A stretch of DNA of 30,211 nucleotides from a virus. A program made the translations under genes and the position numbers. The DNA lies in IMG/VR virus record IMGVR_UViG_3300031539_000205, positions 1 through 30,211 of that record; one strand, written 5' to 3'. Below the pieces are notes generated by a model. The model was given only the letters and a program-made list of their open reading frames with translations. It had not been told where the DNA came from and ran no database searches. Positions 15,770 to 30,211 of the stretch are shown here, piece by piece. How positions within the stretch are numbered: position 1 is the first letter of the stretch; each line of letters begins with the position of its first letter.

Positions 15770-17197
15770 ATGGAACAAGAAAAACTAGTTATCAGAATCG
15801 AACACAAGTCCAACCCCATCTTCGGGCACTGGAGCGAGAAGCACAATTTCCTGGAGATCGTCCTGAAGGCTGCTGTCCAGCCGGAGTTCTCCAACCTGGA
15901 CGCCAACCCGGGCCTGAAGGTCCACCCCCTGAACTTCATTGAGATCCTCCGGCTCCGGAACGCGAATCCCTACCACTCCACCTGCCTGCAGACCAAGAAG
16001 CAGGCTGCAGTTGGGCTCGGGTTCATGACCGAGGCATCCAAGAAGAAGCGCGAGGAGAAGAAGAAGCTCCAGGAGCAGGGTGTGCAGTTCAACCCTGGCG
16101 GGGTCCAGCCTCCTCAGAAGCCCAAGGGAGTCAACAAGGAATCGAGCGACGAGGACAGCTCGAAGGTCTCGAAGATCCTCGATGCGCTCTGCACTGTCTC
16201 TTTCCAGGACGTCATCGACGATGTGATCGATGAGTTCTACCAGGTTGGCAACGGGTTCATCGAGGTTGTTCGGGACGGTCCTGGTGGGAGCATCCTCGGC
16301 CTCCATCACATCCCGGCCCACCAGATCTTCATCCACGTCCTGGAGGACTACACGACCTTCTACGAGGTCGTCAACGGCTCCGAACCTGGTGGGTTCGCCT
16401 CTGGGTCCTTCTCGCGCATCTTCGCCCCCTTCGGGAAGTCCAAGGAAATCGAGGCCATCGAAGAGGCCAGGAACATCAAGCTCCACCGGGGGCCCATCGG
16501 CCAGGTCTCCGAGGTGATCCACTTCCGCAAGCCCTCCTCCCTCAGCCGGTGGTATGGGTTCCCGGACTGGCTCTCCGTCGTGCCGGGCGTGGAGGTCTCC
16601 CAGAAGCTCCGGCAGTTCCAGCACGACTTCTTCGACAATCGTGCCGTCCCGGAATTCGCCTTGTTCATCACCGGGGCCCAGCTCGACCCGGAGGTCTACA
16701 AGAAGCTGGAGGACACCTTCAAGTCCGGGATCGGTTTGGGGAACTCCCACAAGTCCGCCATTATCAATCTCGACGCTCCGAATATCAACATCCAGATGGA
16801 GCGGCTCTCCAGCGACACGAGCAGCGACAACGCCCAGGCCGGCCTCACGACCTCCTTGGCCCTGGAGATTGTGACGGGACACCGCGTGCCGCCGCTCTTG
16901 GCAGGAATTCAGGTCCCCGGGAAGCTCGGCGCCGCGAACGAGATGGTGTCCACGATGAAGGCCTTCCAGTCACTCGTCATCGGCCCGGACCAGCACAACA
17001 TCCGGACGACTCTCTCCAGGACCCTCGGCAACGCCGCCCTCAACGGCGGGCTCGGGCTCACCGAGGATGACATGGAGCTTCGCAAGATCACCGACGAGAT
17101 GGAGGTCGAGCAGCTCGACACCGTCTCCAGGATGAGGCAGGACGTCAATGCTCCCCAGAACAAGGACAGAGACCCGAACGAGGGACTGAAGGACTGA
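15770..17197 (+). CDS. Portal protein, PBSX/Phage_portal family
   Basis: A 475-residue protein that would form the dodecameric DNA-entry ring of the head. Family landmarks: VIDEFYQVGNGFIEVVRD, LGLHHIPAHQIFIHV, VSEVIHFRKPSSLSRWYGFP followed by DWLSVVPGVEVSQK, and FFDNRAVPEFALFITGAQLD. The C-terminus has the ALEIVTGHRVPPLLAGI stretch. ATG 15770 has AGGGG nine bases upstream. It reads opposite to the capsid operon, across a 131-bp divergent gap, and overlaps the next gene as TGATG. I could not identify a convincing plus-strand promoter in the gap. The terminase normally beside the portal is absent here. Confidence 0.92.
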   Translation: MEQEKLVIRIEHKSNPIFGHWSEKHNFLEIVLKAAVQPEFSNLDANPGLKVHPLNFIEILRLRNANPYHSTCLQTKKQAAVGLGFMTEASKKKREEKKKLQEQGVQFNPGGVQPPQKPKGVNKESSDEDSSKVSKILDALCTVSFQDVIDDVIDEFYQVGNGFIEVVRDGPGGSILGLHHIPAHQIFIHVLEDYTTFYEVVNGSEPGGFASGSFSRIFAPFGKSKEIEAIEEARNIKLHRGPIGQVSEVIHFRKPSSLSRWYGFPDWLSVVPGVEVSQKLRQFQHDFFDNRAVPEFALFITGAQLDPEVYKKLEDTFKSGIGLGNSHKSAIINLDAPNINIQMERLSSDTSSDNAQAGLTTSLALEIVTGHRVPPLLAGIQVPGKLGAANEMVSTMKAFQSLVIGPDQHNIRTTLSRTLGNAALNGGLGLTEDDMELRKITDEMEVEQLDTVSRMRQDVNAPQNKDRDPNEGLKD

Positions 17198-18216
17198 TGG
17201 CCAAGGATCCCTACAAGCCGAACAGGGCCCTGGAGGACGAGGCGACTCGCATCCTCAAGCAGGCCCGCATCAATGCCAAGTCTGAGCAGCGGGCCGCCAG
17301 GCGGGCGGAGAAGACCATCGGCAGGGAGGAAATGCGGAACGCCAAAAGGGAGGCGGACCGCATCCTGAAGGAGGCGAAGGACGCTGTCAGGCAGCGTGGA
17401 AGCTCCATTCGAAGGAACGAGTCCACGATCAAGGTCACGCTGACCTACATCATCGCCAACACCCTCCGGGCCCTCGCCATCAAGGAGTGCGGCTCACGAA
17501 CTCTTCAGCAGGTCCTTCGGCACACCCGGCTGCCGGGGCAGGCGCGGGGAGGTCTGTTCCAGCGGAAGACCTCGATCAAGATCGGGATCAACCACTACTG
17601 GGCCTCCTTCTATCACGATGGCTTCAGGGGAGGGACCTTCAACGGACATGTCTCCCGGAGCGGGAAGAAGCCTCACCAGCGCTGGGCCAGCTCGCCCAGG
17701 GGATTCTGGCTGGCCTTCGTCCAGGGAGGGAAGTGCAACGGCATGGACCCCCGCCGCCCCAGCCGGGCCATCGACGAGATCAAGCAGACACACTACAAGA
17801 GGAGCTTCCTGCGCAACCAGACTCCGAGCTTCCTGCGGTCGGTGATCCGCCTGCGCGGGCAATACATGGTCTTCTTCAGGAAGCGGAAGAGTTGGCCTGG
17901 GGATCCATTCTTCACCCGGGCGGAACAGCAGCTCAACGATTTCCTGGCCAACCAGATTTCCAAGTCAGCAGTGCCGGCCCTGCTAGCCTCCGCCATCGAC
18001 GGTCTTGTGGGCAGGGCATTCGGCCGCCAGGTCCGGGCTTCTGATCGCTTGGTTCGACTCTCCAGGTTCCGGGATCCTTACCGCCTGCTCAACATCGAGA
18101 TCGACTACGTCCGCACCAGGGAGATCTCGAACATCGAGGGCGACGTGGGATCCCTGGCCGGCGGAGATGCCGGCCTGGATTTCGACTCCATGAGCGAGCG
18201 CCTGGGCCCCCATTAA
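17197..18216 (+). CDS. Minor head/neck protein candidate, gp10-like C-terminal core with basic N-terminus
   Basis: 339 residues, coupled to the portal gene (TGATG). Residues 1-70 are a strongly charged Arg/Lys/Glu helix (EQRAARRAEKTIGREEMRNA). The central part has IGINHYWASFYHDGFRGGTF and later PGDPFFTRAEQQLNDFLANQ. This pair recalls the 'aHyvEfGT ... PFlrPA' pattern of HK97 gp10-like neck/tail-completion proteins, though here the glycine-rich loop is longer. An acidic tail follows. Position after the portal is also where minor head proteins (gp7-like) occur. Neck or minor head protein is the best guess; the family is unproven. It ends overlapping, tail to tail, the ruvC-like gene. Confidence 0.6.
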   Translation: MAKDPYKPNRALEDEATRILKQARINAKSEQRAARRAEKTIGREEMRNAKREADRILKEAKDAVRQRGSSIRRNESTIKVTLTYIIANTLRALAIKECGSRTLQQVLRHTRLPGQARGGLFQRKTSIKIGINHYWASFYHDGFRGGTFNGHVSRSGKKPHQRWASSPRGFWLAFVQGGKCNGMDPRRPSRAIDEIKQTHYKRSFLRNQTPSFLRSVIRLRGQYMVFFRKRKSWPGDPFFTRAEQQLNDFLANQISKSAVPALLASAIDGLVGRAFGRQVRASDRLVRLSRFRDPYRLLNIEIDYVRTREISNIEGDVGSLAGGDAGLDFDSMSERLGPH

Positions 18217-18229
18217 ATGGGCTGGCGCT
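18197..18229. terminator. Imperfect hairpin at convergent stop codons
   Basis: Arms AGCGCC (18197-18202) and GGCGCT (18224-18229) enclose a second stem CCCAT/ATGGG around TTAATAA-like stop codons of both convergent genes (18213-18216). It could end transcription in both directions, but there is no U-run on either side. Confidence 0.3.
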
Positions 18230-18746
18230 CTGCTCCCCACATGGCGAGCCCGAGGGCGTCCACGACATGCTTCCACTCGTCCGGGCGGAGCTTGTTCAGG
18301 CGTGACGGAGGATTGGTCGGGTAGGAGTAGCCCTGGGTCTTCTTGTAGAGCCATCCCAGCCTGCTCAGGACACGCGCCTGGTGGATAGGCTTCGGGACCT
18401 CACCCTTCCATTTGCGTGGCCTGGGCATGGTCACAGACGTCGCACAGATCGCATGGAGGATGGCCGAGGCTCCGCCTGCGACCTGGGAGAGCAGGAGGAT
18501 GGAGTCGGGTGAGACCTTGCTCTTCCCGTAGTAGATCTGCTGGCCCTCCACGACGCCGTGGAAGCTCACCCCTTCGAGCCACAGTGGGAGGTCGACCGAG
18601 AGCTGCTTGAGCATGGCCTGGACGGCGGCCTCGCCCTTGAGACTCTTCGGCACCCTGCAGACGTTCACGGACTCGACCACCCCATCCAGAATGATGGCGA
18701 CTCCCGTGTTGTGGAGGTCCGGATCTATGCCGACGACGTAGCTCAT
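18213..18746 (-). CDS. RuvC-like Holliday junction resolvase
   Basis: A 177-residue RNase H-fold nuclease. Asp8 in VVGIDPDLHNTGVAII, Glu67 in GVVEGQQIYYGK, and His160/Asp163 in EWKHVVDALGLAMW fit the RuvC acidic active site in order and spacing. Phage RuvC-like enzymes resolve recombination or branched replication intermediates before packaging. An upstream in-frame GTG would add 19 residues of shadow text; ATG 18746, in an ATGA overlap with the GT2 gene, is preferred. It is the last gene of the coupled replication/glycan chain and converges on the plus-strand neck gene. Confidence 0.85.
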   Translation of the reverse strand: MSYVVGIDPDLHNTGVAIILDGVVESVNVCRVPKSLKGEAAVQAMLKQLSVDLPLWLEGVSFHGVVEGQQIYYGKSKVSPDSILLLSQVAGGASAILHAICATSVTMPRPRKWKGEVPKPIHQARVLSRLGWLYKKTQGYSYPTNPPSRLNKLRPDEWKHVVDALGLAMWGAERQPI

Positions 18747-19510
18747 AAGACCATCCCTTTCCTGATTTCCTGGTAGATCGCCCCGTATTCCTCTCCACAC
18801 CATTCTACCAGGATCTTCCCTCCTCGGTCATGGGCAAACCCTTTCGGGCGATGGCCGACCCCGATACCGGACCTACCCGGCAGGCCCTTCATTCCGATCA
18901 CGGAGTCCCTCTCCGGCTCGAAGATGTCCAGGCGCCCGCCCGAGGACTGCCCAAGCTGCCAGAGCTTGGCGTCGATGCCCTTGTGGCCCAGGATCCCCTG
19001 CTGGCAGGCCTCGCGCAGGAGAGGAAACATGGACGACCTCATCCCCGTGGAGCAGAAGGCAGAGCCCCTGTTCCGGAACGTCCTGTAGGAAAGGCTGGGC
19101 AGGTGATAGTATTTCTGCCAGACCGTGCCCACCAGGTCGGAGTCCAGGAGCCTGCCGAACATCTCCGACAGATACCATTCCCGGTAGCAGTCGTCATCCT
19201 CCATGATGAGGAGCTTCTGTGAGGAGATGGCCTCCATGCCGGCCAGGACGTTCCTGGCTAGGCTCCTTGGCCCCTGGTCCTCCTTGATGAACTTCCTGCG
19301 GAGGTAGAAGACGGAGATGCCGAAGTTGGCCATCGTGCTCTCCCCGACCTCCGAGATGGCCCGAGCGCAGGCATTGGACTGCCCGTCGTCGACCAGGACC
19401 CACTCGACAAGGAGTCCTCGCAGGTTCACCTGGCGCATCAGAAATTGGCACAGGAGCTTGATGCTTTCGTAGCGGTCCCCCGTGGGCGTGATGATGCTGA
19501 TATTGTTCAT
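18743..19510 (-). CDS. Family 2 glycosyltransferase (GT-A fold)
   Basis: 255 residues. The N-terminus ISIITPTGDRYESIKLL is the usual GT2 first strand, DD41-42 in WVLVDDGQSN would bind the nucleotide, and the DDD at 105-107 (LIMEDDDCYREWYL) is the DxD metal site. FCSTGMRSSMF and a later acidic stretch complete a short GT-A domain. There is no membrane segment, so it should be cytoplasmic. An in-frame extension upstream lies over the GT-D-like gene and is shadow. ATG 19510 overlaps that gene's TGA. The donor and acceptor cannot be read from sequence. Confidence 0.85.
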   Translation of the reverse strand: MNNISIITPTGDRYESIKLLCQFLMRQVNLRGLLVEWVLVDDGQSNACARAISEVGESTMANFGISVFYLRRKFIKEDQGPRSLARNVLAGMEAISSQKLLIMEDDDCYREWYLSEMFGRLLDSDLVGTVWQKYYHLPSLSYRTFRNRGSAFCSTGMRSSMFPLLREACQQGILGHKGIDAKLWQLGQSSGGRLDIFEPERDSVIGMKGLPGRSGIGVGHRPKGFAHDRGGKILVEWCGEEYGAIYQEIRKGMVL

Positions 19511-20247
19511 AGCCCCGCCAGGTTCCTTTCGTAGGTCTCCTTCGACATCTTCTTGTGGTAGGAGCGGCTGGGGGCGCCGCAGAACACATCCCACAGCGAG
19601 CCGAGGTCCAGGAGGCTGGCTTCCGGCATGAGCGGGGCCAGCTCGTGGATGATGGGCTTGGCGGCCATGGATGCGGAGATGGAGAAGGTCCGGTGGCCCC
19701 TCTTGTAACACTGATAGATCGACCCCTTGATGGTGGCTTTTGAATCGTAGCAGTTCAGGGATGGGATCTCGATGTGGCTGATGTTCCTCTTGATCCTCTG
19801 GTCCAGCTTCTTGAAGATCGGGGGCCCGACGAGAACTGGGGTCCTGGCCAGGAATGCCCGGAGGAACGGGGCCAGCTCTCCGGCGATGCTGGCGCGGTGG
19901 AGGAAGTCCCCATGGAACCAGACCGCGCCTGGGGACATCTCGTCCACCATTCTGATCGCCTCCTCGGTCGGGATCCCCATGAGGCTTGCCAGGAACTTGG
20001 GATCCTGCATCCCATAGCGGACTGCCTTCTCCTTGACGAGAGGAGCCTCCCGGAGAACGTGGAGCAGATCGAGAGCCAGTGGCAAGGTGTAGTCGTGCCG
20101 GTCGCAGTTGGTGGCCCTGGCCTTTCTGCCGTAGATCTCCTGGAGCATGCACATGAACTCCCCATCACCATAGCGCAAGAAGGAGATGGGCTTCTTGACG
20201 GTGAGGTCGAGGATGACATTGGAAACGGTCAAATCATAGTTTCTCAT
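19507..20247 (-). CDS. GT-D-like (DUF1792) glycosyltransferase
   Basis: 246 residues. SFLRYGDGEFMCML near residues 22-35 matches the RxGDGE motif of the DUF1792/GT-D fold family, where Asp28 and Glu30 form the DxE metal site. The later ASLLDLGSLWDVFCG matches the family's C-terminal 'D-GS-DV' region. Characterised GT-D enzymes extend glycans on bacterial surface glycoproteins. Both ends overlap neighbours as ATGA. The substrate here is unknown. Confidence 0.75.
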   Translation of the reverse strand: MRNYDLTVSNVILDLTVKKPISFLRYGDGEFMCMLQEIYGRKARATNCDRHDYTLPLALDLLHVLREAPLVKEKAVRYGMQDPKFLASLMGIPTEEAIRMVDEMSPGAVWFHGDFLHRASIAGELAPFLRAFLARTPVLVGPPIFKKLDQRIKRNISHIEIPSLNCYDSKATIKGSIYQCYKRGHRTFSISASMAAKPIIHELAPLMPEASLLDLGSLWDVFCGAPSRSYHKKMSKETYERNLAGL

Positions 20248-20933
20248 GAGAGGAATCTCCTACCAAATTTACGGGTCAGGTTTCTGGGACGAAGGATTGC
20301 CTGCTTGCCTCCGTGGGTGAAATACTGGAAGAAATCGTTGTTCCGGAAATGCCCAGCGAAGTGGCGCGTCCGGATTCCTGCTGCCCATGCAGCGTAGTCT
20401 ACACTCATCTGGTCCCGGACGCAAACGAGGATCTCCTTCCACCAGATGTCGTGGAACACGCGCATGGATGGAGTGTGCCTCCGGTATAGGAAGCCGGTGC
20501 TGGTGACGTAGTTAGGAAGCTCGAATCCCTGGGCCTGGAACCTCTGGATCTGCGCCCCCAGGTCCTCCCGGGGGATCTTCAGGGAGGCATTGATCTGGTC
20601 GGCCTCCTGGAGCAGATCATCGTTCTTGGGGTGGACCAGGCCCACCAGCTCGAAGCCCCTGGCCTTGAGAATGATCTCATCCGGGTTGGCGAGCAGGTGC
20701 ATGTTGGCGTCAATCCAGACCGATTCCGTCTCCTTCGGGAATAGCTCCTCGGGGTGTGTCTTCAGCCACCTGGCCTGGAGTCTGCCATCCTCTGGGATGT
20801 TGTGGACCTTTCGAATCTCCCACACATCACTCTTGATCGGCAGGTCGGTGAAGCAGATGAACGAGTGATGCCCCGGATTGGAGGGGGCGTAGAGCTTCTC
20901 TTCCTTGCCGATGATTGCGGTGTAGACGATCAC
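20244..20933 (-). CDS. DUF616 (TOD1/MUCI70-like) glycosyltransferase, copy A
   Basis: 229 residues, GTG start (20933) inside a GTGA overlap. RLQARWLKTHPEELFP followed by SVWIDANMHLL is the 'R..R..K..P...FP...WiDan' hallmark of DUF616, with Asp75 as the likely metal ligand. VRDQMSVDYAAWAAG near residue 180 is shared with the next gene upstream. Family members act as glycosyltransferases in plants and also occur in bacteria and phages. Specificity is unknown. Confidence 0.75.
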   Translation of the reverse strand: MIVYTAIIGKEEKLYAPSNPGHHSFICFTDLPIKSDVWEIRKVHNIPEDGRLQARWLKTHPEELFPKETESVWIDANMHLLANPDEIILKARGFELVGLVHPKNDDLLQEADQINASLKIPREDLGAQIQRFQAQGFELPNYVTSTGFLYRRHTPSMRVFHDIWWKEILVCVRDQMSVDYAAWAAGIRTRHFAGHFRNNDFFQYFTHGGKQAILRPRNLTRKFGRRFLS

Positions 20934-21613
20934 TTGCTGCTCCTATCACTGAAGAAGGTAGCTCCAGGGAACTTGTAGTAGAGCCCAGGCAACCACCTGG
21001 CCCTGACACCGGCCTTCCAGATAGAGTAGTCGAAGCTCATCTGATCCCTGCCGTGGCGATATTTGTTGAACTCCTCGAACCAGATCCTGTTCATCTCTCG
21101 GATCTTGGGGCAGTTCCTGCGGATCAGGAACCCTCCACAGGACTGCTCCTTCTGGTCGAACCCCTGGGCCAGATAATCCGCCACCTGGTGATCGAGTAAG
21201 GGCCAGTCAGCCTCGCGGACCTTCCCGCATTCCTTCAGGGCCTGGGCCTCCTGGATGATGCTGGAGTGGCAAGGATGCTTGAAGCGGGCCAGGTCCATTG
21301 CCTTGGGCTGGAGGTATTTCCGGATCATGTCCTCCGGCATCATGCGGAGTTTGAAGCTGGCATCCATCCAGATCCAGTATTCCGCAGCCTTCTCCGGCCC
21401 ACCCTCGTGGCACATGATCTTGACCATGCGAGTCAGGTGGACAGGATCCGTGCCCTTGATCTCACGCCTCTCCCAAGGTCCGGAGATTGGAGGATGCCCG
21501 GGGGAGACGTAGGCTATGAACCTGGCCTTGGTCTTACGGGAGACGGACAGCTTCGGGATCCGAATCGTGTCGGAATGGTGACCTAGGCTGGCCGTCACCA
21601 CGTAGATCTTCAC
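20930..21613 (-). CDS. DUF616-like glycosyltransferase, copy B
   Basis: 227 residues, GTG start (21613) inside a GTGA overlap with the methyltransferase gene. YWIWMDASFKLR (Asp84) and GRDQMSFDYSIWKAGVRARW align with the equivalent motifs of the neighbour, so the two are tandem paralogues that have diverged strongly. The middle differs, with a longer insertion around SCGGFLIRRNCPKI. It probably transfers a different sugar or acts on the other's product; this is inference. Confidence 0.7.
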   Translation of the reverse strand: MKIYVVTASLGHHSDTIRIPKLSVSRKTKARFIAYVSPGHPPISGPWERREIKGTDPVHLTRMVKIMCHEGGPEKAAEYWIWMDASFKLRMMPEDMIRKYLQPKAMDLARFKHPCHSSIIQEAQALKECGKVREADWPLLDHQVADYLAQGFDQKEQSCGGFLIRRNCPKIREMNRIWFEEFNKYRHGRDQMSFDYSIWKAGVRARWLPGLYYKFPGATFFSDRSSK

Positions 21614-22206
21614 CCTCGCACCAGAGTCAGGAGGCCATGGCCGTAGGGGGCGTGCCGCTCGATGCGCCAGTGGGGATTGGCCGCCATGAACTCGTCGATG
21701 GCGAGGCGGATGCCGTGGGATGCCGGATCGAAGCAGGAGCGGTCATCCGGCTGGGGAAGGTAGGTCCCTGTCTCCAGGTTCGCCCCCATCGTGGCGAAGG
21801 TGATCGTGTCATGGAAGACGAGCCATTTCTTCGATTCGTTGCCCCACATGGACAGCTCGTTGCGCAGGTGCTTGTAGGTGTGGAGGGAGTCGAAGAAGAT
21901 CAGGTCTGGGGTCGCGCAGCCTGCGAAGGATGAGTAATCGATGGAGTTCCCCTCGAACAATCTCCACCTCTTCTTGTCCACGGCCTTCTTGAGCTGCCGG
22001 GCCTTGTTCGTGGTCACCAGGTCCACGCTGAACAACCTGCCCTCTGGAGGAAGGCCGGCCAAGAACGCGCTGGAGGAGTGGCCGCACTTCACACCCAGCT
22101 CCCAGATCGAGGTGCATTTGCCGGCCATTTCCTTCAGGTAAGGGAGGTGCTTGGCCGTGGCTACCCTGCTCGCGCAGTTGTTCCTGAAGATCTTTTCGAG
22201 CGACAT
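21610..22206 (-). CDS. Class I SAM-dependent methyltransferase (Methyltransf_24-like)
   Basis: 198 residues. SIWELGVKCGHSSSAFL (residues 33-50) is motif I for SAM binding, RLFSVDLV is motif II, and DLIFFDSLHTYKHLRNEL with KKWLVFHDT gives the FxDxxHxY...HD pattern typical of Methyltransf_24 enzymes, which often O-methylate small molecules or sugars. It lies among glycosyltransferases, so a sugar hydroxyl is the likely target. The start overlaps the upstream stop (TAATG). Confidence 0.8.
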   Translation of the reverse strand: MSLEKIFRNNCASRVATAKHLPYLKEMAGKCTSIWELGVKCGHSSSAFLAGLPPEGRLFSVDLVTTNKARQLKKAVDKKRWRLFEGNSIDYSSFAGCATPDLIFFDSLHTYKHLRNELSMWGNESKKWLVFHDTITFATMGANLETGTYLPQPDDRSCFDPASHGIRLAIDEFMAANPHWRIERHAPYGHGLLTLVRG

Positions 22207-22754
22207 TAGAATTCCTCCAAGGTTAAAAACGGAAGTGACGGAAGGTTAGCTATCTTGGAGCAGTTGAGCAGCTCCACTTTCTTCTCCGCCAGCTTGTCCC
22301 TCATGGACGCCAGGTGCTCGTTGATGGCTTTCGCGCTCCGGCTCATGTGGTGGTCTGGCAGGAGGTCCATGCCGATGACGCCAATCCTCTTCGCCCCGAG
22401 CTTGTAGGCAAGGTGGATGGCAGCGAAGGGTGAGGTCCTGAAGTGCAGGAGGTCCTCCACGTCTAGGTTCGCCCTAGGGCTGAACCTCTGCAGATGGAGC
22501 TTCCGGATCGCCTTGGCGCCCAAGCGTGGCATCCAAGCATCGTGGCAGATCCAGGCCACCTCTGCTGGGCAGATGTCGATGTAGAGGAGCCTGTTCTCCG
22601 TGAACCTGCGGGGGGCGTCCAGGACCAGAAGGTGGGTGGGGCTCAGGAACCGGGCCACGTCGTTCACGCCGATGGTCGTGAACTCGCAGAGCGCATCTGC
22701 CTGCCTCACAGCAGAGGCCCCGAGCCCCACCACAATGATCGTTTCAGTCGGCAT
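22206..22754 (-). CDS. DUF115/GT42-like Rossmann protein
   Basis: 182 residues. TIIVVGLGASAVRQADAL opens a Rossmann-like fold. FTTIGVNDVARFLSPTHLLV and SPFAAIHLAYKLGAKRIGVI followed by GMDL recall the pattern 'IvGlGpS...tigvN......D....sp.aAi.lA..LGak.I.l.GmD' of DUF115 and GT42 sialyltransferase-like proteins. It could be a transferase or a sugar-binding partner. The ATG lies 11 bases inside the DUF5664 gene, tying the glycan genes to nucleotide metabolism. Confidence 0.55.
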   Translation of the reverse strand: MPTETIIVVGLGASAVRQADALCEFTTIGVNDVARFLSPTHLLVLDAPRRFTENRLLYIDICPAEVAWICHDAWMPRLGAKAIRKLHLQRFSPRANLDVEDLLHFRTSPFAAIHLAYKLGAKRIGVIGMDLLPDHHMSRSAKAINEHLASMRDKLAEKKVELLNCSKIANLPSLPFLTLEEF

Positions 22755-23106
22755 CGGGAATTTCTTTCTCGATGTTCTCCTGGGCCCAGACCGCCATGGC
22801 GGCCCGGCAGATCACATGCCCGAGATGATCCTCGGTCTTGTCTCCTGCCAGGTATTCGATCACATGGCGGATCAGATGGTTCAGGTGGCTCTTGAGCGGG
22901 ATCCCGTGCCAGTTGTTGTCGCTGTATTTCCTGGCACCATAGGCCAGGACCTTGGCCAGCCGGCGCATCGCTTCCGGTGGGAGCAGGTCGTAGCGCTCCT
23001 CCAGCTTCGACTGCTGGGCCCCGTTGGGCAGGGTCTCCCGCTCCTCCTTCTTCTTCGCGGACTCGCTCTGCATCTTGATGATGTTCATGGCTTCTTCAGG
23101 ACTCAT
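22744..23106 (-). CDS. DUF5664 dATP/dGTP diphosphohydrolase-like protein
   Basis: 120 residues. ERYDLLPPEAMRRLAKVLAY followed by GARKYSDNNWHGIP and HLIRHVIEYLAGDKTEDHLG match the DUF5664 pattern (yDLlPpeal..la.Vl..GarKY...NW...RH...y..Ge..D). Members of this all-alpha MazG-like group hydrolyse deoxynucleoside triphosphates. The N-terminus is a charged helix. It may shape the nucleotide pool for the polymerase a few genes upstream. Both junctions overlap (ATGA upstream). Confidence 0.8.
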   Translation of the reverse strand: MSPEEAMNIIKMQSESAKKKEERETLPNGAQQSKLEERYDLLPPEAMRRLAKVLAYGARKYSDNNWHGIPLKSHLNHLIRHVIEYLAGDKTEDHLGHVICRAAMAVWAQENIEKEIPDAD

Positions 23107-23270
23107 TTGTGCTCCTTCTTATACGCCAGAGCTGCTGTGAATGACGTAGTCGTGTGCTCCTTGATCTCTTCCCTTCCGTCGTGGAACTTCCTGATCACAT
23201 ACCACTTGTCGCTGAAGTAGCACTTTGTGACCACCAGGAAAGACTTCTTCGCATCAGTGGACTGGTTCAT
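23103..23270 (-). CDS. Small basic hypothetical protein
   Basis: 55 residues (MNQSTDAKKSFLVVTKCYFS...), ending LAYKKEHK. The frame is open further upstream, but ATG 23270 has GAGGG nine bases before it, while ATG 23279 is too close to the site. It overlaps both neighbours. FLVVTKCYFSDKWYVIRKFH looks like beta strands. No family is recognised. Confidence 0.6.
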   Translation of the reverse strand: MNQSTDAKKSFLVVTKCYFSDKWYVIRKFHDGREEIKEHTTTSFTAALAYKKEHK

Positions 23271-23553
23271 CTGGCGCATCCCTCTTCGTGACACTGCCGG
23301 TCCGAATGTGGACCTTAGCATCGACCCCCAAGTCTATCACAATTTTTGTGAGTTGGCGTCGGAGGAGATGCGCTTTTTCCCAGGTTGGCGCCCTGAGGAT
23401 TGGCTTTATACGAGTCACTCCGATCTTTGCCAGGACCGACCACCAGCGATCCTTGGGAGGAGTCTGGGAGAAGTGGGGCCGGACCACGATGAACTCCGTG
23501 ACACCGGCCAGGTCGACCTCGGTGATCTGATCCTTCAGGAGGAGGGAGACCAT
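23254..23553 (-). CDS. Hypothetical protein after DNA polymerase
   Basis: 99 residues, starting MVSLLLKDQITEVDLAG and ending RDAPDEPVH. The ATG lies 19 bases inside the polymerase gene. Predicted strands (EFIVVRPHF) are followed by a basic helix (WEKAHLLRRQLTKIVI). A longer frame upstream overlaps the polymerase in antisense-like style and was discarded. No motif I recognise; replication-linked by position only. Confidence 0.6.
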   Translation of the reverse strand: MVSLLLKDQITEVDLAGVTEFIVVRPHFSQTPPKDRWWSVLAKIGVTRIKPILRAPTWEKAHLLRRQLTKIVIDLGVDAKVHIRTGSVTKRDAPDEPVH

Positions 23554-25577
23554 ATCTGCAGCCGTCCTTTCTCGTCTCGCACTGGTTCTGCCGCCTTGTC
23601 CCAGCGGCGCATAAGGCAGGGGGAAGCACCGATTGGAACGTCGGGCAGGATCAGGTGCATCTGGCTCTTCCAGATCTCCGCCACCTTGTCCGCCTTCTCT
23701 CCCATGTCCGGGCCCTCTGGGATCTCCAGGAGAATCTCGTCGTGGATGAAGGCCTGGGGGTAGCATCCCTTGAGGTCCCCGACGTAGCAGGCCTTTGCCA
23801 CCTCGAAGACGGCCAGCTTGGCTCCCTCAGCGGCTGGGCTCTGCAGGGCGGCCCCGTTGGCGCAGGCGCAGTAGGTGGCTCCGGCCCGATACATGCCGAG
23901 GGGCGTGGAGTAGCAGTAGGAGTCAGGATCGTATGGATCCTTGCACCCCCTGTTGACCCACTGGAAATAGTCCTTCATCTCCAGGTAGATGGCGAACCAA
24001 ATCTGCCTGAGCTGGACGGCCTCTTCTCGGGTCACCAGGACGTCGTAGGTGTCCTTGGCGTAGGTCACGAACGTGTCCGGCCCTAAACCGCCGGGGAACC
24101 CCAGGCCTGTCGGCTTGGCGAATTTGCGCCAGTGCCCGAAGAACTTCTTTGAGCCGGGCCAGCTCTTCAGCTTCAGAAATTCCCGGTAGATATCGTCCGG
24201 CTGGTCGCAACCGCTCCACTCCCTGAACTCCTCATCGAAGTGCCAGGCGAGCTGGGCCCCGAGGAACGCATGGAGATCGTAGCCGGCCATGACCTTGTCC
24301 CAGTGGACAGAGTAGCCGAACAGCGATTTCGTCTTCTGGGCCAGGGCCACAAGCTCCAGGGCAGAGTAGTCGATGGAGCAGATCACGAACCCGGGGCGGG
24401 CGACAAAGCAGCCCCTGGCCCGTGGGTCTACCTGCTGGATGTTGGTGGCCGGGTAGGGCTCCATCGGGGCTTCCTTGCGGTTACCGTAGGACGACGTGCG
24501 CCCAGTCTCCTTCAGGATATCGAAATTCGGATGGACCGAGTCGGCGGCCAGCTTGGGAAGCTCCGTGCCGGCCAGCCGGGCGAGGGCCTGCCGCTTCTGG
24601 TATTCCGCGAGGCGCTCGTCATAGGGCGCCAGCTCGGTGATCGTGCCGGCATCGGCCGCCACCTGGTCGGTCGCCGTCTTCTTGACTTCCCTTCCGTTCT
24701 TCTCGCACACCTCGACGATCACTTCCCCCAGCCTCTTGGTGTTGATGGAGGTGGGCTTTCCCTTGGTCGTGCCTTTGCCATTCTTGTAGGCCCGGGGAGG
24801 TTCAGATGGCCGAAGGATTCCAGATTGGATGAGGAGCTGCAGGTTGTCCTCGTGCAGGTCGACGGCCAGCTCCGCCGCCAGCTTGTCCCGGTGCTCCTGA
24901 TCGATCTTGAAGCCTCGGACGGTCATGAGGCGGAGCGCGAAGTCCACGGAGGTCTGGAAGGTGTGGGTCGTCATGGAGCCGGGGCCTGTAGGGTTCGCCT
25001 GCTTCTCCTGCTCCTCCCAGATCCTCAAGGTGTCGATGGCGTCCTGGATGGCGTAGCGCGAGGCCTCCTCGGGGTATTCGGAGATGGGCTTGCCGTCCAG
25101 CTCGCTGTAGCGCAGGCGCCAGGCATCGGGGGAGTTCTTCTCCTCGGACCTGTCCTCACCGAACCTGTTGAGGACGAGCGCGGCCAGGGAATAGGCGATC
25201 TTCTGCTCACTTCCGTCAGGCATGTAGAGCTTGTCGATCTTTCCGATGGTCGATAGGTTCAGGAGCTTCTCCCGGATGCGCGTGTCCGTCACTCTGTGCG
25301 CGTCCAGGGCCTTGAAGATGACGGGCAAGAGGTGCGGCCAGGTCCTGGCAATGACTGTCAGATCGTATGCGGTGTTGTGGCCGACGAGCAGCGTGTCCGG
25401 ATCGTCGAACAGGCTGTGAAGCAGGACCGGCAGGCTGTCGTCGCAAGAGGCCAGCAGATCCCTCTTGATGACCCCGTCGATACGTGAAGCAAACGACGCG
25501 CAGACCACCTTCGGCGCCACGGCATCTCCAGGGCCGATGAGATAGGTCTCCGTGTCGAATGCTACCACGTTCTTCAT
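23535..25577 (-). CDS. Family A DNA polymerase with 3'-5' exonuclease
   Basis: 680 residues, the phage replicase. The exonuclease domain is intact: VAFDTETYL (Asp8, Glu10), LVGHNTAYDL (Asp72) and YAIQDAIDT (Tyr175, Asp179). There is no 5'-3' exonuclease domain. The polymerase domain has motif A ICSIDYSALEL (Asp403), motif B RKFAKPTGLGFPGGLG (Arg484, Lys488) and motif C FIHDEILLE (Asp613). Motif B differs from canonical Pol I RxxxKxxxFGxxYG: the Phe762 position is Leu492 and the Tyr766 position is Gly496. ATG 25577, in an ATGA overlap, is preferred to a longer upstream frame that is shadow. A basic stretch near residue 265 (NGKGTTKGKP) looks like a loop insertion. Confidence 0.93.
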   Translation of the reverse strand: MKNVVAFDTETYLIGPGDAVAPKVVCASFASRIDGVIKRDLLASCDDSLPVLLHSLFDDPDTLLVGHNTAYDLTVIARTWPHLLPVIFKALDAHRVTDTRIREKLLNLSTIGKIDKLYMPDGSEQKIAYSLAALVLNRFGEDRSEEKNSPDAWRLRYSELDGKPISEYPEEASRYAIQDAIDTLRIWEEQEKQANPTGPGSMTTHTFQTSVDFALRLMTVRGFKIDQEHRDKLAAELAVDLHEDNLQLLIQSGILRPSEPPRAYKNGKGTTKGKPTSINTKRLGEVIVEVCEKNGREVKKTATDQVAADAGTITELAPYDERLAEYQKRQALARLAGTELPKLAADSVHPNFDILKETGRTSSYGNRKEAPMEPYPATNIQQVDPRARGCFVARPGFVICSIDYSALELVALAQKTKSLFGYSVHWDKVMAGYDLHAFLGAQLAWHFDEEFREWSGCDQPDDIYREFLKLKSWPGSKKFFGHWRKFAKPTGLGFPGGLGPDTFVTYAKDTYDVLVTREEAVQLRQIWFAIYLEMKDYFQWVNRGCKDPYDPDSYCYSTPLGMYRAGATYCACANGAALQSPAAEGAKLAVFEVAKACYVGDLKGCYPQAFIHDEILLEIPEGPDMGEKADKVAEIWKSQMHLILPDVPIGASPCLMRRWDKAAEPVRDEKGRLQIWSPSS

Positions 25578-25834
25578 TTCCGCAGCTCCTCTTTGATGAA
25601 CATCATGATGTGCTTGGCGAGTTGTCGAGACAGGCCCTTGTCCTGCTCCACCCCGTTGATGAAGATGCGCTCCAGTTGCTCGTTCTTGTCGAGGTGGATC
25701 TCCAGCCGCTTCGTCGGCAGGTCGCTGGTCATCCAGTTCCCTCCCAGGATGCGGGTCGCCCACAGGTAGGTGTCGTTTGGGGAGGCCAAGATCTTCCTGA
25801 TCTTGCCCTGGTCGTCTTTGATGAGCACTGTCAT
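25574..25834 (-). CDS. Small hypothetical protein upstream of DNA polymerase
   Basis: 86 residues (MTVLIKDDQGKIRKILASPN...), coupled by ATGA overlaps on both sides. The first half looks beta-rich; the C-terminal KGLSRQLAKHIMMFIKEELR is an amphipathic helix. No family is recognised. Its place between a zinc ribbon and the polymerase suggests a replication or regulatory role. Confidence 0.65.
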   Translation of the reverse strand: MTVLIKDDQGKIRKILASPNDTYLWATRILGGNWMTSDLPTKRLEIHLDKNEQLERIFINGVEQDKGLSRQLAKHIMMFIKEELRK

Positions 25835-26085
25835 CGCATCAGCTCCCAGGGCTTCTTGGCCCCAAACTCGTCCTCGTTCTTGTCCTGCGCCTTGGCGTAG
25901 GACGCCTTCTTCTTCATGTCGTTGCCAGGGAACCCAGAGCCTTTGAAGATGGTCCCCTGGCCTCCGGTGATGCGTCGGTTCATGTCGCAGCCACAAGATG
26001 GACAGGCCACCTGAGGGTCCTCTGTCATCCCATGGTTGACTTCCGATTCCTTGCCGCATTGCGGACATCGGTATTCGTAGATCAT
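25831..26085 (-). CDS. FmdB-type zinc ribbon protein
   Basis: 84 residues. The start MIYEYRCPQCGKESEV and ACPSCGCDMNRRI give Cys7, Cys10, Cys28 and Cys31, the CxxC...CxxC of the FmdB small zinc-ribbon family; the following GGQGTIFKGSGFPGND is also typical. The C-terminus is lysine-rich. Such proteins probably act as regulators or nucleic-acid binders, but the function is not firmly known. First gene after the hairpin gap; ATG 26085 has GGAGG upstream (CTGGAGGCAATC). Confidence 0.85.
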   Translation of the reverse strand: MIYEYRCPQCGKESEVNHGMTEDPQVACPSCGCDMNRRITGGQGTIFKGSGFPGNDMKKKASYAKAQDKNEDEFGAKKPWELMR

Positions 26086-26105
26086 GATTGCCTCCAGAGA
26101 GAAGG

Positions 26106-26167
26106 AGTCCCGCCGGCCGCGCTGTCCACCCCTGAGGTATGATACGGGCGCGGCGACCGGCGGGACT
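26106..26167. repeat. Long GC-rich hairpin in the replication-operon gap
   Basis: Arms 26106-26122 and 26148-26167 pair over 17 bp (11 perfect outer pairs, a 3-base CGA bulge on the right arm, 6 perfect inner pairs). The 25-base loop carries the palindrome GTATGATAC (26137-26145). It occupies nearly all of the 88-bp gap between the 172-residue gene and the zinc-ribbon gene. It may be a terminator, a processing site or an operator; no good -35 was found beside the -10-like TATGAT. Confidence 0.75.
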
Positions 26168-26173
26168 TTTGAA

Positions 26174-26692
26174 TTATTCGAGTTCCGCCAGGCGCTCCTG
26201 CTCCTCGGCGGTGAGGAACTTCTCGATGACGTCGGCGGGGATCTTCTCCTTGATCTCCTCCGCGTCCAGGCTGCGGACGTAGTTGACCAAGGTGAAGGGC
26301 GTGTCCTTCTTGGTCATGACGATCTTGTTCTGCAGCTCCACGACGCGCCCGGACAGCGGCTGCTCGTCGGAAACCACTTCCATGGCCTCCTCCTCGCCCA
26401 CCTGGCTCTCTTCGACCGCCATCACGTTGGACACGAAGGCCTTGAAGTTGGGGAGGAAGGAGTCGTTCTTCCGCATGAGCAGTTGGCTCATCTGCTCCCC
26501 GGGGCGGTGCGCCTGCTCGGCCGGGTCCTCGGCCAGGGTGACCAGGTTCACCATCTCGATGGCGACGAAGTCATCCCCCTTGCGGGTCTTGTCCTGCTTC
26601 ACCCGGCGGATCAGCACCAGGTAGTGGCCGGCCTTGACGTAGTTGGCTCCACGGCTTGCTTTTGCGTCTTTGATCCCGTCGAAAAGTCCCAT
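26174..26692 (-). CDS. Hypothetical protein, possible OB-fold ssDNA-binding protein
   Basis: 172 residues, acidic at the end (FLTAEEQERLAELE). The N-terminus MGLFDGIKDAKASRGANYVK is followed by beta-rich text (GHYLVLIRRVKQDKTRKGDD, then FVAIEMVNLV) resembling the small OB-like phage proteins that bind single-stranded DNA. I cannot identify a named family. Position beside the helicase and upstream of the polymerase fits a replication accessory. A hairpin follows its stop. Confidence 0.65.
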   Translation of the reverse strand: MGLFDGIKDAKASRGANYVKAGHYLVLIRRVKQDKTRKGDDFVAIEMVNLVTLAEDPAEQAHRPGEQMSQLLMRKNDSFLPNFKAFVSNVMAVEESQVGEEEAMEVVSDEQPLSGRVVELQNKIVMTKKDTPFTLVNYVRSLDAEEIKEKIPADVIEKFLTAEEQERLAELE

Positions 26693-26694
26693 GT

Positions 26695-26874
26695 TCAGTT
26701 CTCCATTTCTTCTTCTTCGACACAGATCTCCGCTACACTGCGAAGGTTACGAATCCATTCTGAGAGCAGGTCTTCTTCGTCCTCCCGAAGATGCGGCCAG
26801 AACTCGCTCTGGTCAAACCTGTCGCACTCGTCCTTGATCTTGTCCCACCGGACCTGTTTCTTTGTCGTTTCCAT
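26695..26874 (-). CDS. Small acidic hypothetical protein
   Basis: 59 residues from ATG 26874 (a TTG two codons earlier is possible). It is helical and acidic, with FWPHLREDEEDLLSEWIRNL and an EEEEMEN end. Only 2 bases separate it from the 172-residue gene. No family is recognised; it could be a protein-binding partner of the neighbouring helicase. Confidence 0.55.
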   Translation of the reverse strand: METTKKQVRWDKIKDECDRFDQSEFWPHLREDEEDLLSEWIRNLRSVAEICVEEEEMEN

Positions 26875-26882
26875 GCCCAACT

Positions 26883-28967
26883 CTACTCCCCCTTGTCCGC
26901 GCTGTCAACACCGAATCTTTCCTGGAAAAATCTGACCTGCTCTGGGTTCAGCGGCTTGGGCTGGAGGCCCTTCTCTCTGAGGAACTCCTGAGAGTAGATA
27001 CGCGGCATGGGAGTGTGAGTTCCAAAGATTAGCTTCTGTCTCATTCCGGTCGTCTGCTGGATGTAGGTGGCATCCGACAACGTCGCGGCGTAGAGCACAT
27101 GCTCCCAGGTCATGGTGTGGAAGGTGTGGACCAGAAGCTCGTCCGCCGACTGCCCGTTGCGATGGGTCCTGCCGACGATCTGCTCGGCGTCCTTGGCAGG
27201 CCTGGGCCACTGGACGAAGCATTGGTTCTTGAAGTGCTGGAGGTTCTTGCCAATGCCGTGGGCCGGCATGGAGGCCACGCAGAGCTTCCCGGCGTTCCCG
27301 GGGTCGCAGATCCTGCGGTTGCCAGCCTCTCCAGCCGCGCACTCCAGCCCCGGCAGGCCGGCCTCCAGGAGCGCCTCCAGGATCCACCGGCCGATCTCCT
27401 GGTGGTAGACCCACAGGATGGCCCCTTCACCCCCCAGGGACTGGGCCCACTTCACGACATGGCGAATCTTGTAGTCGCACACCCGCACGGTGATGCTGTC
27501 CCGGTTCGGGCGCCCCTCGAAGTCCAGGTCCTTCATCCTTCGCCAGAGCCCGGCCAGCAGCCCTCCCACCTTCTTTCCGCCGTTGCGGGAGATCTCCGAC
27601 CCCACGAGCATGGGAGTGTCCATCCCCTTCGGGGGGTCGTGCAAGAACTCTCGGAGCCCAACAGCATACTCCTGAGCCGCATGGTGGTGCTCCTTGGCGC
27701 GATCTAGGCGGGAGGAGGCTTCCGACACGGGCAGGCCCTCGCGTGCAGCCAAGGCCTCTGGTTCGGGCCATACGAGAGAATTGAAGAATCCAGCCGACAG
27801 CTCATAGAGCCACTTGTATGTGTGGATGGCGTGCTCGATCTCGTCGCCGTTCGGCGTGAGGAATTTGTCCTGGACCTGGTTGATGAGGTGCTCCAAGTGG
27901 GTGAAGCCCTCCGCCGCCTCAGGCTTGTCCACTGGCAAATTCTGGAACACCAGGCTTGTGCCGATGTCTGAGTCGCTGGTGGAGACGACGCCAGGGCAGG
28001 TCGTGAGCCGGAGCCGGTAGGCCTTGCGGAGCCCAGGCTGGGTGGCAGGGAACTTCTCCGCCGGCTGGATGCCCTTGGCCCATTCGAGGAGTGGGAAGAG
28101 CACTCGCATCTGGTCGTCGTTGGGAGGCTCGCTCGTGGAGTCGAGGACGGCTCCCCACTCCTGGCACATGATCGGGCTGCGCGGCAGGGGGCAGTTCTCC
28201 CCCAGGCAGAACCGGATCAGGTGGGAGTAGTCGGAGATTCCCTTGGAGGTGATGGTCCCGGACAGGCAGACGAGCTGGGGATTGTGGTCCCGGATGAAAT
28301 TCATGAGACGCTTGGTCCGGGCCGCCGTCCTGTTCTTCAGGAGGTGAGCCTCGTCCGCGATGATCAGCCCCGGCTCGATGGTCTCTAGGATCTTCACGGA
28401 GTCTGTAGTGGACAGGAAGGAGTAGGGGATCACGTAGCAGCCGATCAGCCCCTTCTCGATCATGTGGGCCCTCTGCGCCTTGGTCTTCCCCGCCATCCCA
28501 TGAAACTGGACGGGCAACACGGTCCGCTTCCTGGCCCACGGGATATCCCGCTTGAAGAGCTGCTCATAGACCTGGGGCGGGACCAGGATCACAGAGCGGT
28601 GAATGTGCAGCTCCTTGTAGGCATGCGCCGCGATCAGGAGGGTGATCAGGGTCTTACCCTGCCCGACCCCGATGGGGGCGAAGAGCCCGCCGGCCTCGCG
28701 GTAGGCTGCTACGGCAGTGGCTTGGATGGGGAACAGGCGCCAGCCGGACTCGAACGTGTCCGCGAGGAGGACCTCACGGTTGAGCTTCTCCAGCTCGAAT
28801 TCCTTTGCAAGCTCCCGGATCGGCAGGTTGGTCACCCTTCTGACTTCTGCCACGTCCGGGGGAATATCCCGCCTCCCGATCCGGAGCCGCTCCAGTAGAC
28901 TGGAGGTTTTCTTCGGCTCCGGATCGGGCATCCGACCTCTCTCCTTCAGCTTGTCAAGGAGGCTCAC
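26883..28967 (-). CDS. SF2/SNF2-like DEAH-box helicase
   Basis: Up to 694 residues. Walker A IGVGQGKT (residues ~99-106), IIADEAHLLKN (DEAH, 205-208), LSGTITSKG (motif III, ~236-239) and QIVGRTHRNGQ (motif VI, near residue 620) form a full SF2 set; the HRNGQ ending resembles SNF2-type enzymes. Phage helicases of this type open origins or remodel DNA for replication or recombination. A GTG at 28967 starts the longest frame; ATG 28931 (MPDPEPKK) has a better site (AAGGAG, 9-base spacer). I keep the longer form because its first residues match those of two neighbouring proteins. Confidence 0.87.
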   Translation of the reverse strand: MSLLDKLKERGRMPDPEPKKTSSLLERLRIGRRDIPPDVAEVRRVTNLPIRELAKEFELEKLNREVLLADTFESGWRLFPIQATAVAAYREAGGLFAPIGVGQGKTLITLLIAAHAYKELHIHRSVILVPPQVYEQLFKRDIPWARKRTVLPVQFHGMAGKTKAQRAHMIEKGLIGCYVIPYSFLSTTDSVKILETIEPGLIIADEAHLLKNRTAARTKRLMNFIRDHNPQLVCLSGTITSKGISDYSHLIRFCLGENCPLPRSPIMCQEWGAVLDSTSEPPNDDQMRVLFPLLEWAKGIQPAEKFPATQPGLRKAYRLRLTTCPGVVSTSDSDIGTSLVFQNLPVDKPEAAEGFTHLEHLINQVQDKFLTPNGDEIEHAIHTYKWLYELSAGFFNSLVWPEPEALAAREGLPVSEASSRLDRAKEHHHAAQEYAVGLREFLHDPPKGMDTPMLVGSEISRNGGKKVGGLLAGLWRRMKDLDFEGRPNRDSITVRVCDYKIRHVVKWAQSLGGEGAILWVYHQEIGRWILEALLEAGLPGLECAAGEAGNRRICDPGNAGKLCVASMPAHGIGKNLQHFKNQCFVQWPRPAKDAEQIVGRTHRNGQSADELLVHTFHTMTWEHVLYAATLSDATYIQQTTGMRQKLIFGTHTPMPRIYSQEFLREKGLQPKPLNPEQVRFFQERFGVDSADKGE

Positions 28968-28970
28968 AGT

Positions 28971-29285
28971 TCAGAACTTCTTTCCCCCATGCCGATACGC
29001 ACGGGTGTCGTTGTAATCCATCTTCGCCCGGAGGGCCCCGATGAGGTCCAGCTTCAGCTCCTTGGCCATGTCCAGGATTCTGATGATCGTGTCCGCCAGC
29101 TCCTCCTCGACCCCGGAAAACTCCGGGATCTTGTCGCTCTGCATGTTCACCCTCTCGGCCTCCAGGGCCTCGGACAACTCCGAGTGGACGAGAGCGATCA
29201 AGGTCCCGAACTCCCTGGGCTTGTCCCACCAGCCCTTGTCGTGGGCATACTGGTTGATCCGGTCCATGAGATCCTGGATGCGCAT
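28971..29285 (-). CDS. MazG-like nucleotide pyrophosphohydrolase
   Basis: 104 residues. VHSELSEALEAER (Glu36, Glu39) and EEELADTIIRILD (Glu62, Asp65) form the ExxE...ExxD metal-binding set of all-alpha MazG proteins. KMDYNDTRAYRHGGKKF is the usual C-terminal signature of phage-borne members. It would hydrolyse (d)NTPs to monophosphates or, as suggested for phage MazG, lower host (p)ppGpp. ATG 29285 overlaps the upstream TGA (TGATG); a longer frame upstream is shadow of the AT-hook gene. Confidence 0.88.
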   Translation of the reverse strand: MRIQDLMDRINQYAHDKGWWDKPREFGTLIALVHSELSEALEAERVNMQSDKIPEFSGVEEELADTIIRILDMAKELKLDLIGALRAKMDYNDTRAYRHGGKKF

Positions 29286-30121
29286 CAGATTCCCTCCACG
29301 ATGTTCTCGAACCGGGAGCGGAGGCCCTGGACGAATGCCTTCATCTCGGGGGTCGAGTCCGGGGCCGCCACGAACACGTCGGTCAGGATCTCGACATGCC
29401 CTGCCGCGAGGGTGAGCATGTCCCGGCGCTTGAAAACATCCAGGGACCAGAAGCTGTCGGGAGCATCGTCCCCGAGGTCGGCCAGGATCAAGGCCATGGC
29501 AGCCTTGAAGATCCGCTCCACGCAGTTCACGGTCCGGCCCACAGGCATGCACCGGACGTAGAGCGTCGGCCCTTCCGGGGGCTCCACAGGGAACGTGCCG
29601 GCCGACACGATCCTGGCCTCGGGCGGCAGGTAGGCTTCCGGTGGGAAGGGCGTCGTCTGGATGGGCTTGGCGATCTCGTTGAGCATCGCCGGGGGTTCCT
29701 CCTTCAGCGGCTTGACTTCCTCCTCAACCCCAGTCTGGCCCGTGATCTCGATGGGCGTCTTGTTCTTGCTCCCCTTGGGCCGGCCCCGGCGCTTCGGCTT
29801 CTCCTCGGCAGGTCCGGGGACTTCCGGGGGGACTTCCGGGGCGACTTCCGGGGCGTCTGCTGGGGAGTTTGGAGGAGCCGGTGCCGGCTCCGGAGCGCTG
29901 GCGGTCTCAACGACGGGCGCGGGCTCCGGAGTCGGGGCCGGTGGAACTTCCATGTCCTTGTTGGAATCCATGCAGGCCTTGCACGGGAACCCCTTGGAAT
30001 TCTGGCCCTTCCCTCCGCAGGCGATGCAGGGTATGGCGACTTTGGGATCCTCGACGGCCGGAGCTTCGGGCTCGGCCTGGCATGGCAGCTTCTTCTTCTT
30101 CATCTTGTCGAACAGCGACAT
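29285..30121 (-). CDS. Zinc-finger / AT-hook protein of unknown function
   Basis: 278 residues in four parts: basic N-terminus MSLFDKMKKKKLPC; a four-cysteine finger IPCIACGGKGQNSKGFPCKA (Cys32, 35, 47, 50), like DnaJ-type fingers; a Pro/Ala/Glu-rich linker (~55-108) ending in the AT-hook EKPKRRGRPKGSKNK; and a C-terminal domain of ~125 residues with TLYVRCMPVGRTVNCVERIF. Binding to AT-rich minor groove by the hook is established for that motif. ATG 30121 has AAAAGGAG nine bases upstream. The frame is open to the right window edge, so a longer form cannot be excluded. Confidence 0.75.
   Translation of the reverse strand: MSLFDKMKKKKLPCQAEPEAPAVEDPKVAIPCIACGGKGQNSKGFPCKACMDSNKDMEVPPAPTPEPAPVVETASAPEPAPAPPNSPADAPEVAPEVPPEVPGPAEEKPKRRGRPKGSKNKTPIEITGQTGVEEEVKPLKEEPPAMLNEIAKPIQTTPFPPEAYLPPEARIVSAGTFPVEPPEGPTLYVRCMPVGRTVNCVERIFKAAMALILADLGDDAPDSFWSLDVFKRRDMLTLAAGHVEILTDVFVAAPDSTPEMKAFVQGLRSRFENIVEGI
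29818..29854 (-). repeat. Three 12-bp tandem repeats in the AT-hook gene linker
   Basis: The core gacttccgggg recurs three times at 12-base steps and encodes the APEVAPEVPPEVP stretch. In-frame slippage would lengthen or shorten the flexible linker by four residues per copy. Confidence 0.7.
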
Positions 30122-30211
30122 TTCTTCCGTCTCCTTTTGGTCAAACTGCTGACCCGACTTGTCTATGATCTGCTTGATCCTCTTGGTGTAGTCCTTGATC
30201 GAATTCTTTCC
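30122..30211 (-). other. Right edge: open frame continuing into the AT-hook gene
   Basis: On the minus strand the last 90 bases stay open in the same frame as the AT-hook gene (KNSIKDYTKRIKQIIDKSGQ...), while the other two frames meet stops. The text looks coding. It is either an N-terminal extension of that protein starting outside the window, or leader sequence before ATG 30121, which has its own good ribosome binding site. Confidence 0.4.

Follow-up and report, generated by a model that had tools for sequence, protein, structure and literature searches.

A six-gene glycan cassette in the replication operon of a phage lineage and its possible link to virion glycosylation

Phage DNA glycosylation is well known, and a run of six translationally coupled sugar-transfer and methylation genes inside a viral replication operon raises the question of what such a cassette decorates: the viral DNA, the host or the virus particle. 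We addressed this question by comparing the locus with related contigs, by assigning the encoded proteins to families, and by determining where their relatives lie in other genomes.

Organization of the window and the cassette

The window analyzed here is the whole IMG/VR record IMGVR_UViG_3300031539_000205, which comprises 30,211 bases with a GC content of 61% and is probably a fragment. The left part of the window encodes tail proteins, the tape measure, the major tail protein, the major head protein, a protease and the portal, and the right part is a replication module with an SNF2-type helicase, a MazG-like protein (assigned by eye) and a family A polymerase. The six genes (g1 to g6; Table 1) occupy the minus strand from 22754 to 18743 between these modules, with a dATP/dGTP diphosphohydrolase gene on one side and a RuvC-like gene on the other. 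The distance from the cassette to the capsid gene is approximately 4.5 kb, and within the lineage the cassette sits at the boundary between the replication and head genes.

Upon re-reading all of the junctions, we found the coordinates, the minus-strand orientation and every overlap given in a preliminary description of the locus to be correct. The diphosphohydrolase gene overlapped g1 by 11 nt, g1 and g2 were joined by TAATG, the g2/g3 and g3/g4 junctions were GTGA, and ATGA overlaps were present at g4/g5, g5/g6 and g6/RuvC. The start of g6 was located at 19510; the longer listed ORF (18743-20152) is an open frame only. The polymerase gene was followed by two small ORFs (~23254-23553 and 23103-23270) and then, as the third gene, by the PF18909 gene that overlaps g1, which was consistent with the upstream coupling to a dNTP pyrophosphohydrolase three genes after the polymerase that had been described. 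Scans for promoters and terminators returned about as many hits as expected by chance, and we therefore make no claim about transcription. Base composition did not support a recent acquisition of the cassette from a foreign source, as the GC3 values of 0.78-0.86 were the same as those of the neighboring genes.

Two further features of the window were observed. The portal and MuF-like genes (15770-18216) are encoded on the plus strand, in reverse orientation relative to the other head genes. In the window, this inverted pair overlaps the end of the RuvC-like gene by 4 nt; the inversion is common to the two related species L005 and L025 described below. Additionally, the window contains two genes of the nucleotide pyrophosphohydrolase type, one MazG-like by eye (28971-29291) and the other the PF18909 gene, and no PurZ gene.

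Table 1. Positions and assignments of the cassette genes and the two flanking genes in the window
Feature	Coordinates	Strand	Assignment	Length	Remark
g1	22206..22754	-	predicted GT42/DUF115(MptE)-like glycosyltransferase	182 aa	
g2	21610..22206	-	SAM-dependent methyltransferase, Methyltransf_24, sugar O-methyltransferase-like	198 aa	
g3	20930..21613	-	TOD1_MUCI70 (DUF616) GT-like protein	227 aa	missing in L025
g4	20244..20933	-	TOD1_MUCI70 (DUF616) GT-like protein, g3 paralogue	229 aa	DUF616 common to all three species
g5	19507..20247	-	putative GT-D-like protein	246 aa	missing in L025
g6	18743..19510	-	GT2 transferase, phage-enriched subfamily	255 aa	
Flanking diphosphohydrolase	22744..23106	-	dATP/dGTP diphosphohydrolase (PF18909, E 4.5e-21)		not counted in the glycan pathway
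Flanking RuvC-like resolvase	18213..18746	-	phrog_1770, E 2.9e-7		

Protein families and conservation of the cassette

The six gene identities proposed in the preliminary description (a DUF115/GT42-like protein, a methyltransferase, two DUF616-like proteins, a GT-D-like protein and a GT2 enzyme) were supported by Pfam, PHROG, profile and motif comparisons. The g1 protein matched phrog_4603 and phrog_2111, its match to PF01973 was below the curated cut-off (E 0.048), and a nine-sequence g1 profile matched the sialyltransferase CstII with an E-value of 1.1e-6. Structure prediction, one of the checks that had been suggested for this locus, gave an AlphaFold2 model of g1 with a pLDDT of 86, for which the best PDB fold was CstII (8e-6) and a Maf transferase showed a TM of 0.67. 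These matches support a GT42-like predicted fold for g1, similar to those of CstII and the Maf transferase. In contrast to CstII, g1 is shorter and has C165 at the position of the catalytic His188, and sialyl transfer therefore cannot be claimed.

The g2 protein was over the cut-off of PF13578 (Methyltransf_24; E 2.9e-10), and its match to RMNT_CmcI was weak. The g3 and g4 proteins, which share approximately 32% identity, were both over the curated cut-off of PF04765 (TOD1_MUCI70, the former DUF616), with E-values of 3.3e-14 and 3.8e-13, respectively. Likewise, g6 was over the curated cut-off of PF00535 (E 1.2e-5) and contained the subfamily signature ITPTGDR...MEDDD...KGLPGRxGIGxGH. The match of g5 to PF22882 was weak (E 0.037; 13.8 bits, where the cut-off is 27). 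Two motifs, RYGDGE and DLGSxxDxFxG, were common to g5 and two PF22882 members over the cut-off (L055 and L061), which adjoin DUF616 genes in two larger phages, and a GT-D-like assignment of g5 thus appears to have moderate support; the structure model of g5 itself had a pLDDT of only 37, which precluded a fold search. The 19-residue hydropathy maximum was below 1.4 in all six proteins, under the value of 1.6, which indicated that they contain no membrane segments.

We compared the cassette with those of two separate species, L005 (3300031539_000527) and L025 (3300035698_010279), the capsid proteins of which are approximately 60% identical to that of the window. Both species kept the order diphosphohydrolase, g1, g2, DUF616, g6 and RuvC, followed by the inverted portal pair. 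L025 contained no g5 and only a single DUF616 gene, which aligned best with g4; the constant core thus consists of g1, g2, one DUF616 gene and g6. Between the window and L005, dS was 0.13-0.22 for g3-g5 and 0.65-1.3 for the other genes measured, and dN/dS was 0.12-0.19 for g3-g5 within a whole measured range of 0.12-0.56. In particular, g3 and its L005 copy were 96% identical at the amino acid level, with a dS of 0.14 and a dN/dS of 0.13. The low dS and dN/dS values of g3-g5 indicated a recent exchange of these central cassette genes and purifying selection acting on them.

Another contig, 3300031566_000287, was 99.8% identical to the window over 19469-30211 and then switched to 3300031539_000527-like sequence. 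This switch (L003/L004; window ~19469-19620) is either natural recombination or a chimeric assembly; the latter may account for the switch in one contig but not for the low dS in L005. As the block recurs in L005 and L025 with dN/dS values in the range given above, it is not a chance reading, and we conclude that the six genes form a genuine glycan cassette that is conserved and in part mobile.

Relatives of the cassette genes and candidate acceptors

A tblastn search of INPHARED with g1, g2, g5 and g6 gave no match, and distant relatives were therefore sought by profile scans. The scan with the g6 alignment, which was blind to position, revealed 13 more viral loci, and a wider g6 alignment revealed two loci in bacterial genomes; by relatedness, the g6 loci collapse to about five groups. 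The contexts of L019, L013, L017, L021 and prophage L047 were tested with PHROG and those of L014, L016 and L022-L024 were judged by eye only, while the viral locus L020 (2.5 kb) was too short to judge and the second bacterial locus (L048) appeared chromosomal. Outside the lineage, every phage locus whose context was readable had its g6 relative within a cluster of virion genes. The order in L019 was terminase, capsid, portal, Ad1, the group of g1-type, GT2 and DUF616 genes, Hc1, tail terminator and major tail protein, and that in prophage L047 was terminase, portal, major head protein, adaptor, the group of methyltransferase, GT2 and g1-type genes, Hc1, neck and major tail protein. The GT2 gene was found between the portal and MuF genes in L013, after the adaptor in L017, beside a ClpP-type protease and the portal in the L021 group, and after a putative capsid gene (phrog_24071, of unknown function; capsid by position) in L012, L015 and L018. 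A g1-type gene accompanied the GT2 gene in L012, L014-L019, L021, L022 and L047, as did a methyltransferase in L012, L015 and L047. In L018 (9047-11416) and L012 (9170-11437), we also observed fusion proteins that combine a g1-type domain with GT2 domains and are encoded immediately downstream of the putative capsid gene.

The g1 family was also present in phage isolates, where the g1-family profile matched PAJU2 gp10 at 6e-35 and P7 hdmB at 1e-22. In the Pseudomonas phages PAJU2, D3 and Psp6, the g1-type gene occupied the head-neck region between the head and tail genes, together with a methyltransferase, and in P7 it was located within the hdm operon, which the depositors annotated as head morphogenesis. 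These isolates resemble the cassette in having a GT42-like gene beside a methyltransferase or another transferase (in P7 hdmB/hdmC, corresponding to P1 pmgO/pmgP). They differ in their head/tail location and in partners of other families, as the other cassette proteins had no match among the PAJU2, D3, Psp6 and P7 genes, and the function there is also putative. The C1-controlled P7 operon (NC_050152 81973-84531; L043) encodes the GT42/MptE-like hdmB and hdmC and an annotated glycosyltransferase, hdmD, and the virions of P1 and P7 could be glycosylated. A further gene separated the g1-type gene from the methyltransferase gene in PAJU2 (gp11, 275 aa; L042:5516-6343) and Psp6 (L046:5906-6736); this type of protein had no Pfam match and looked GT-B-like by eye. 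A trypsin-like serine protease (PF13365, E 8e-25) was observed beyond the tail genes of a related phage (L039:2897-3736).

Relatives of the DUF616 proteins were scanned for with a three-sequence profile, as a seven-sequence profile was too divergent to scan with. In bigger phages, the DUF616 and GT-D relatives belonged to large glycan clusters that also contained nucleotide-sugar epimerases and a pyruvyl transferase, and a head/tail context was rare among the relatives of g2-g5. These contexts bear on whether the cassette acts early on the host surface, where altering or capping the LPS core, the capsule or another envelope glycan would block superinfection or the re-adsorption of progeny. The replication-side position of the cassette is consistent with such an early role, as are the presence of the DUF616, GT-D, GT2 and Methyltransf_24 families in polysaccharide clusters, the occurrence of the relatives in L052, L053 and L061 with a UDP-GlcNAc 2-epimerase, an epimerase and a pyruvyl transferase, and the large glycan cluster carried by S-SCSM1; glycan clusters of this kind in jumbo phages have been interpreted as modifying outer polysaccharides (PMC7824862). 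However, the cassette encodes no membrane-spanning protein, flippase or GtrA/B-type gene, its six proteins having no Gtr family match and the low hydropathy described above, and the g1 and g6 relatives lie among head, neck and tail genes rather than in conversion islands. We consider host-surface modification possible but less likely than virion decoration.

The coupling of the cassette to the diphosphohydrolase and RuvC genes near the DNA polymerase would fit glycosylation of a pre-modified base by the transferases, as in T4-like or TET-encoding phages. The likeness to the T4-type DNA glucosyltransferase systems is phage-encoded glycosyl transfer; in contrast to those systems, the cassette proteins had no AGT/BGT match. 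No thymidylate-synthase-type hydroxymethylase, TET/JBP, C5-methylase or PurZ (PF00303, PF12851, PF00145 and PF00709) was found in the four lineage contigs, all of which are possibly incomplete and which extend ~6.5 kb upstream of the window and, at the other end, ~8 kb outside the tail genes; such a scan misses enzymes that belong to unknown families. This agreed with the absence of a base hydroxymethylase noted in the preliminary description, and the nucleotide-sugar synthase reported there as absent was not seen either. The upstream extension encoded a DUF5906 primase/helicase, a PD-(D/E)XK nuclease and a weakly matched SprT-like protein. A 2-aminoadenine (Z) genome was considered in view of the diphosphohydrolase and rejected, as PurZ was absent from the four contigs. 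The related enzymes in head/tail modules and the resemblance of g2 to small-molecule/sugar O-methyltransferases also argue against DNA hypermodification, which we regard as unlikely.

Virion glycosylation as the preferred reading

As the g1 and g6 relatives lie among head and tail genes, the sugars are most likely located on the virus particle and not on its DNA. We propose, with a probability of about 0.5, that the cassette would be a cytosolic glycan assembly line that decorates a virion protein. The preliminary description had preferred DNA hypermodification or early surface remodeling over virion decoration on account of the location of the cassette in the replication operon, and the position of these relatives inside head/tail modules of several unrelated phage groups speaks against that preference. 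Additionally, Maf transferases target flagellin, a protein, and the resemblance of the predicted g1 fold to Maf counts for a protein acceptor. The same resemblance would fit another soluble acceptor, such as host flagellin or pilin or a small molecule, modified to change host physiology or block competitors; however, the neighborhood gives no sign of a host target, and the head/tail position of the relatives would be left unexplained, which makes this alternative improbable. A counterpoint to a virion acceptor is that the cassette of this lineage is in the replication operon and not in the head operon, and the head-operon position of the relatives is not proof of a virion target. Among the structural proteins, none was notably Ser/Thr-rich and no acceptor was found.

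In the proposed virion pathway, the six translationally coupled genes would act as one cytosolic assembly line, in which the soluble g1, g3, g4, g5 and g6 would in turn assemble a short sugar chain on a protein of the virion. This acceptor would probably belong to the head, its decoration protein included, or to the tail tube. The g2 enzyme would methylate a sugar to give one methyl cap. The donors would be host nucleotide sugars, and must come from the host given that no nucleotide-sugar synthase was seen. The best candidates for starting the chain are g1 or g6, since no other pair co-occurs as often beside head genes. The constant core would be supplemented by g3 and g5 as add-ons that alter the chain and move between phages. 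The multi-sugar, probably methylated product suggested earlier is supported; the chain itself, the order of transfer, the sugars, the late activity and the acceptor are inferred.

Cluster O mycobacteriophages are reported to carry an O-methyltransferase gene followed by three tandem transferase genes, which modify the capsid and tail tube (PMC11600133, PMC12363180, citing Freeman 2023); Che8 gp110 and Corndog gp38 are described as essential for capsid glycosylation (PMC12363180). As in the Corndog group and Che8, we found several tandem glycosyltransferases with an O-methyltransferase in one operon of a tailed phage. The supporting position of g1 and g6 relatives among head/tail genes was seen elsewhere but not in the window's own lineage. 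The cassette differs from that of cluster O in its five transferases and its location in a replication operon.

It is conceivable, although rather doubtful, that in this lineage a virion-glycosylation line left the head operon and became coupled to DNA replication, with the swappable middle (g3-g5) giving related virions different coats. The locus also advises caution, as gene position alone is a poor ground for reading a cassette as DNA hypermodification. In the literature covered here, phage virion glycosylation has been demonstrated for a few actinobacteriophages only. If the virion reading is true, virion glycosylation would be far wider, and the g1/GT2/methyltransferase module would be a marker of glycosylated virions in several unrelated phage groups, among them the laboratory phages D3, PAJU2 and P1/P7, which are open to direct testing.
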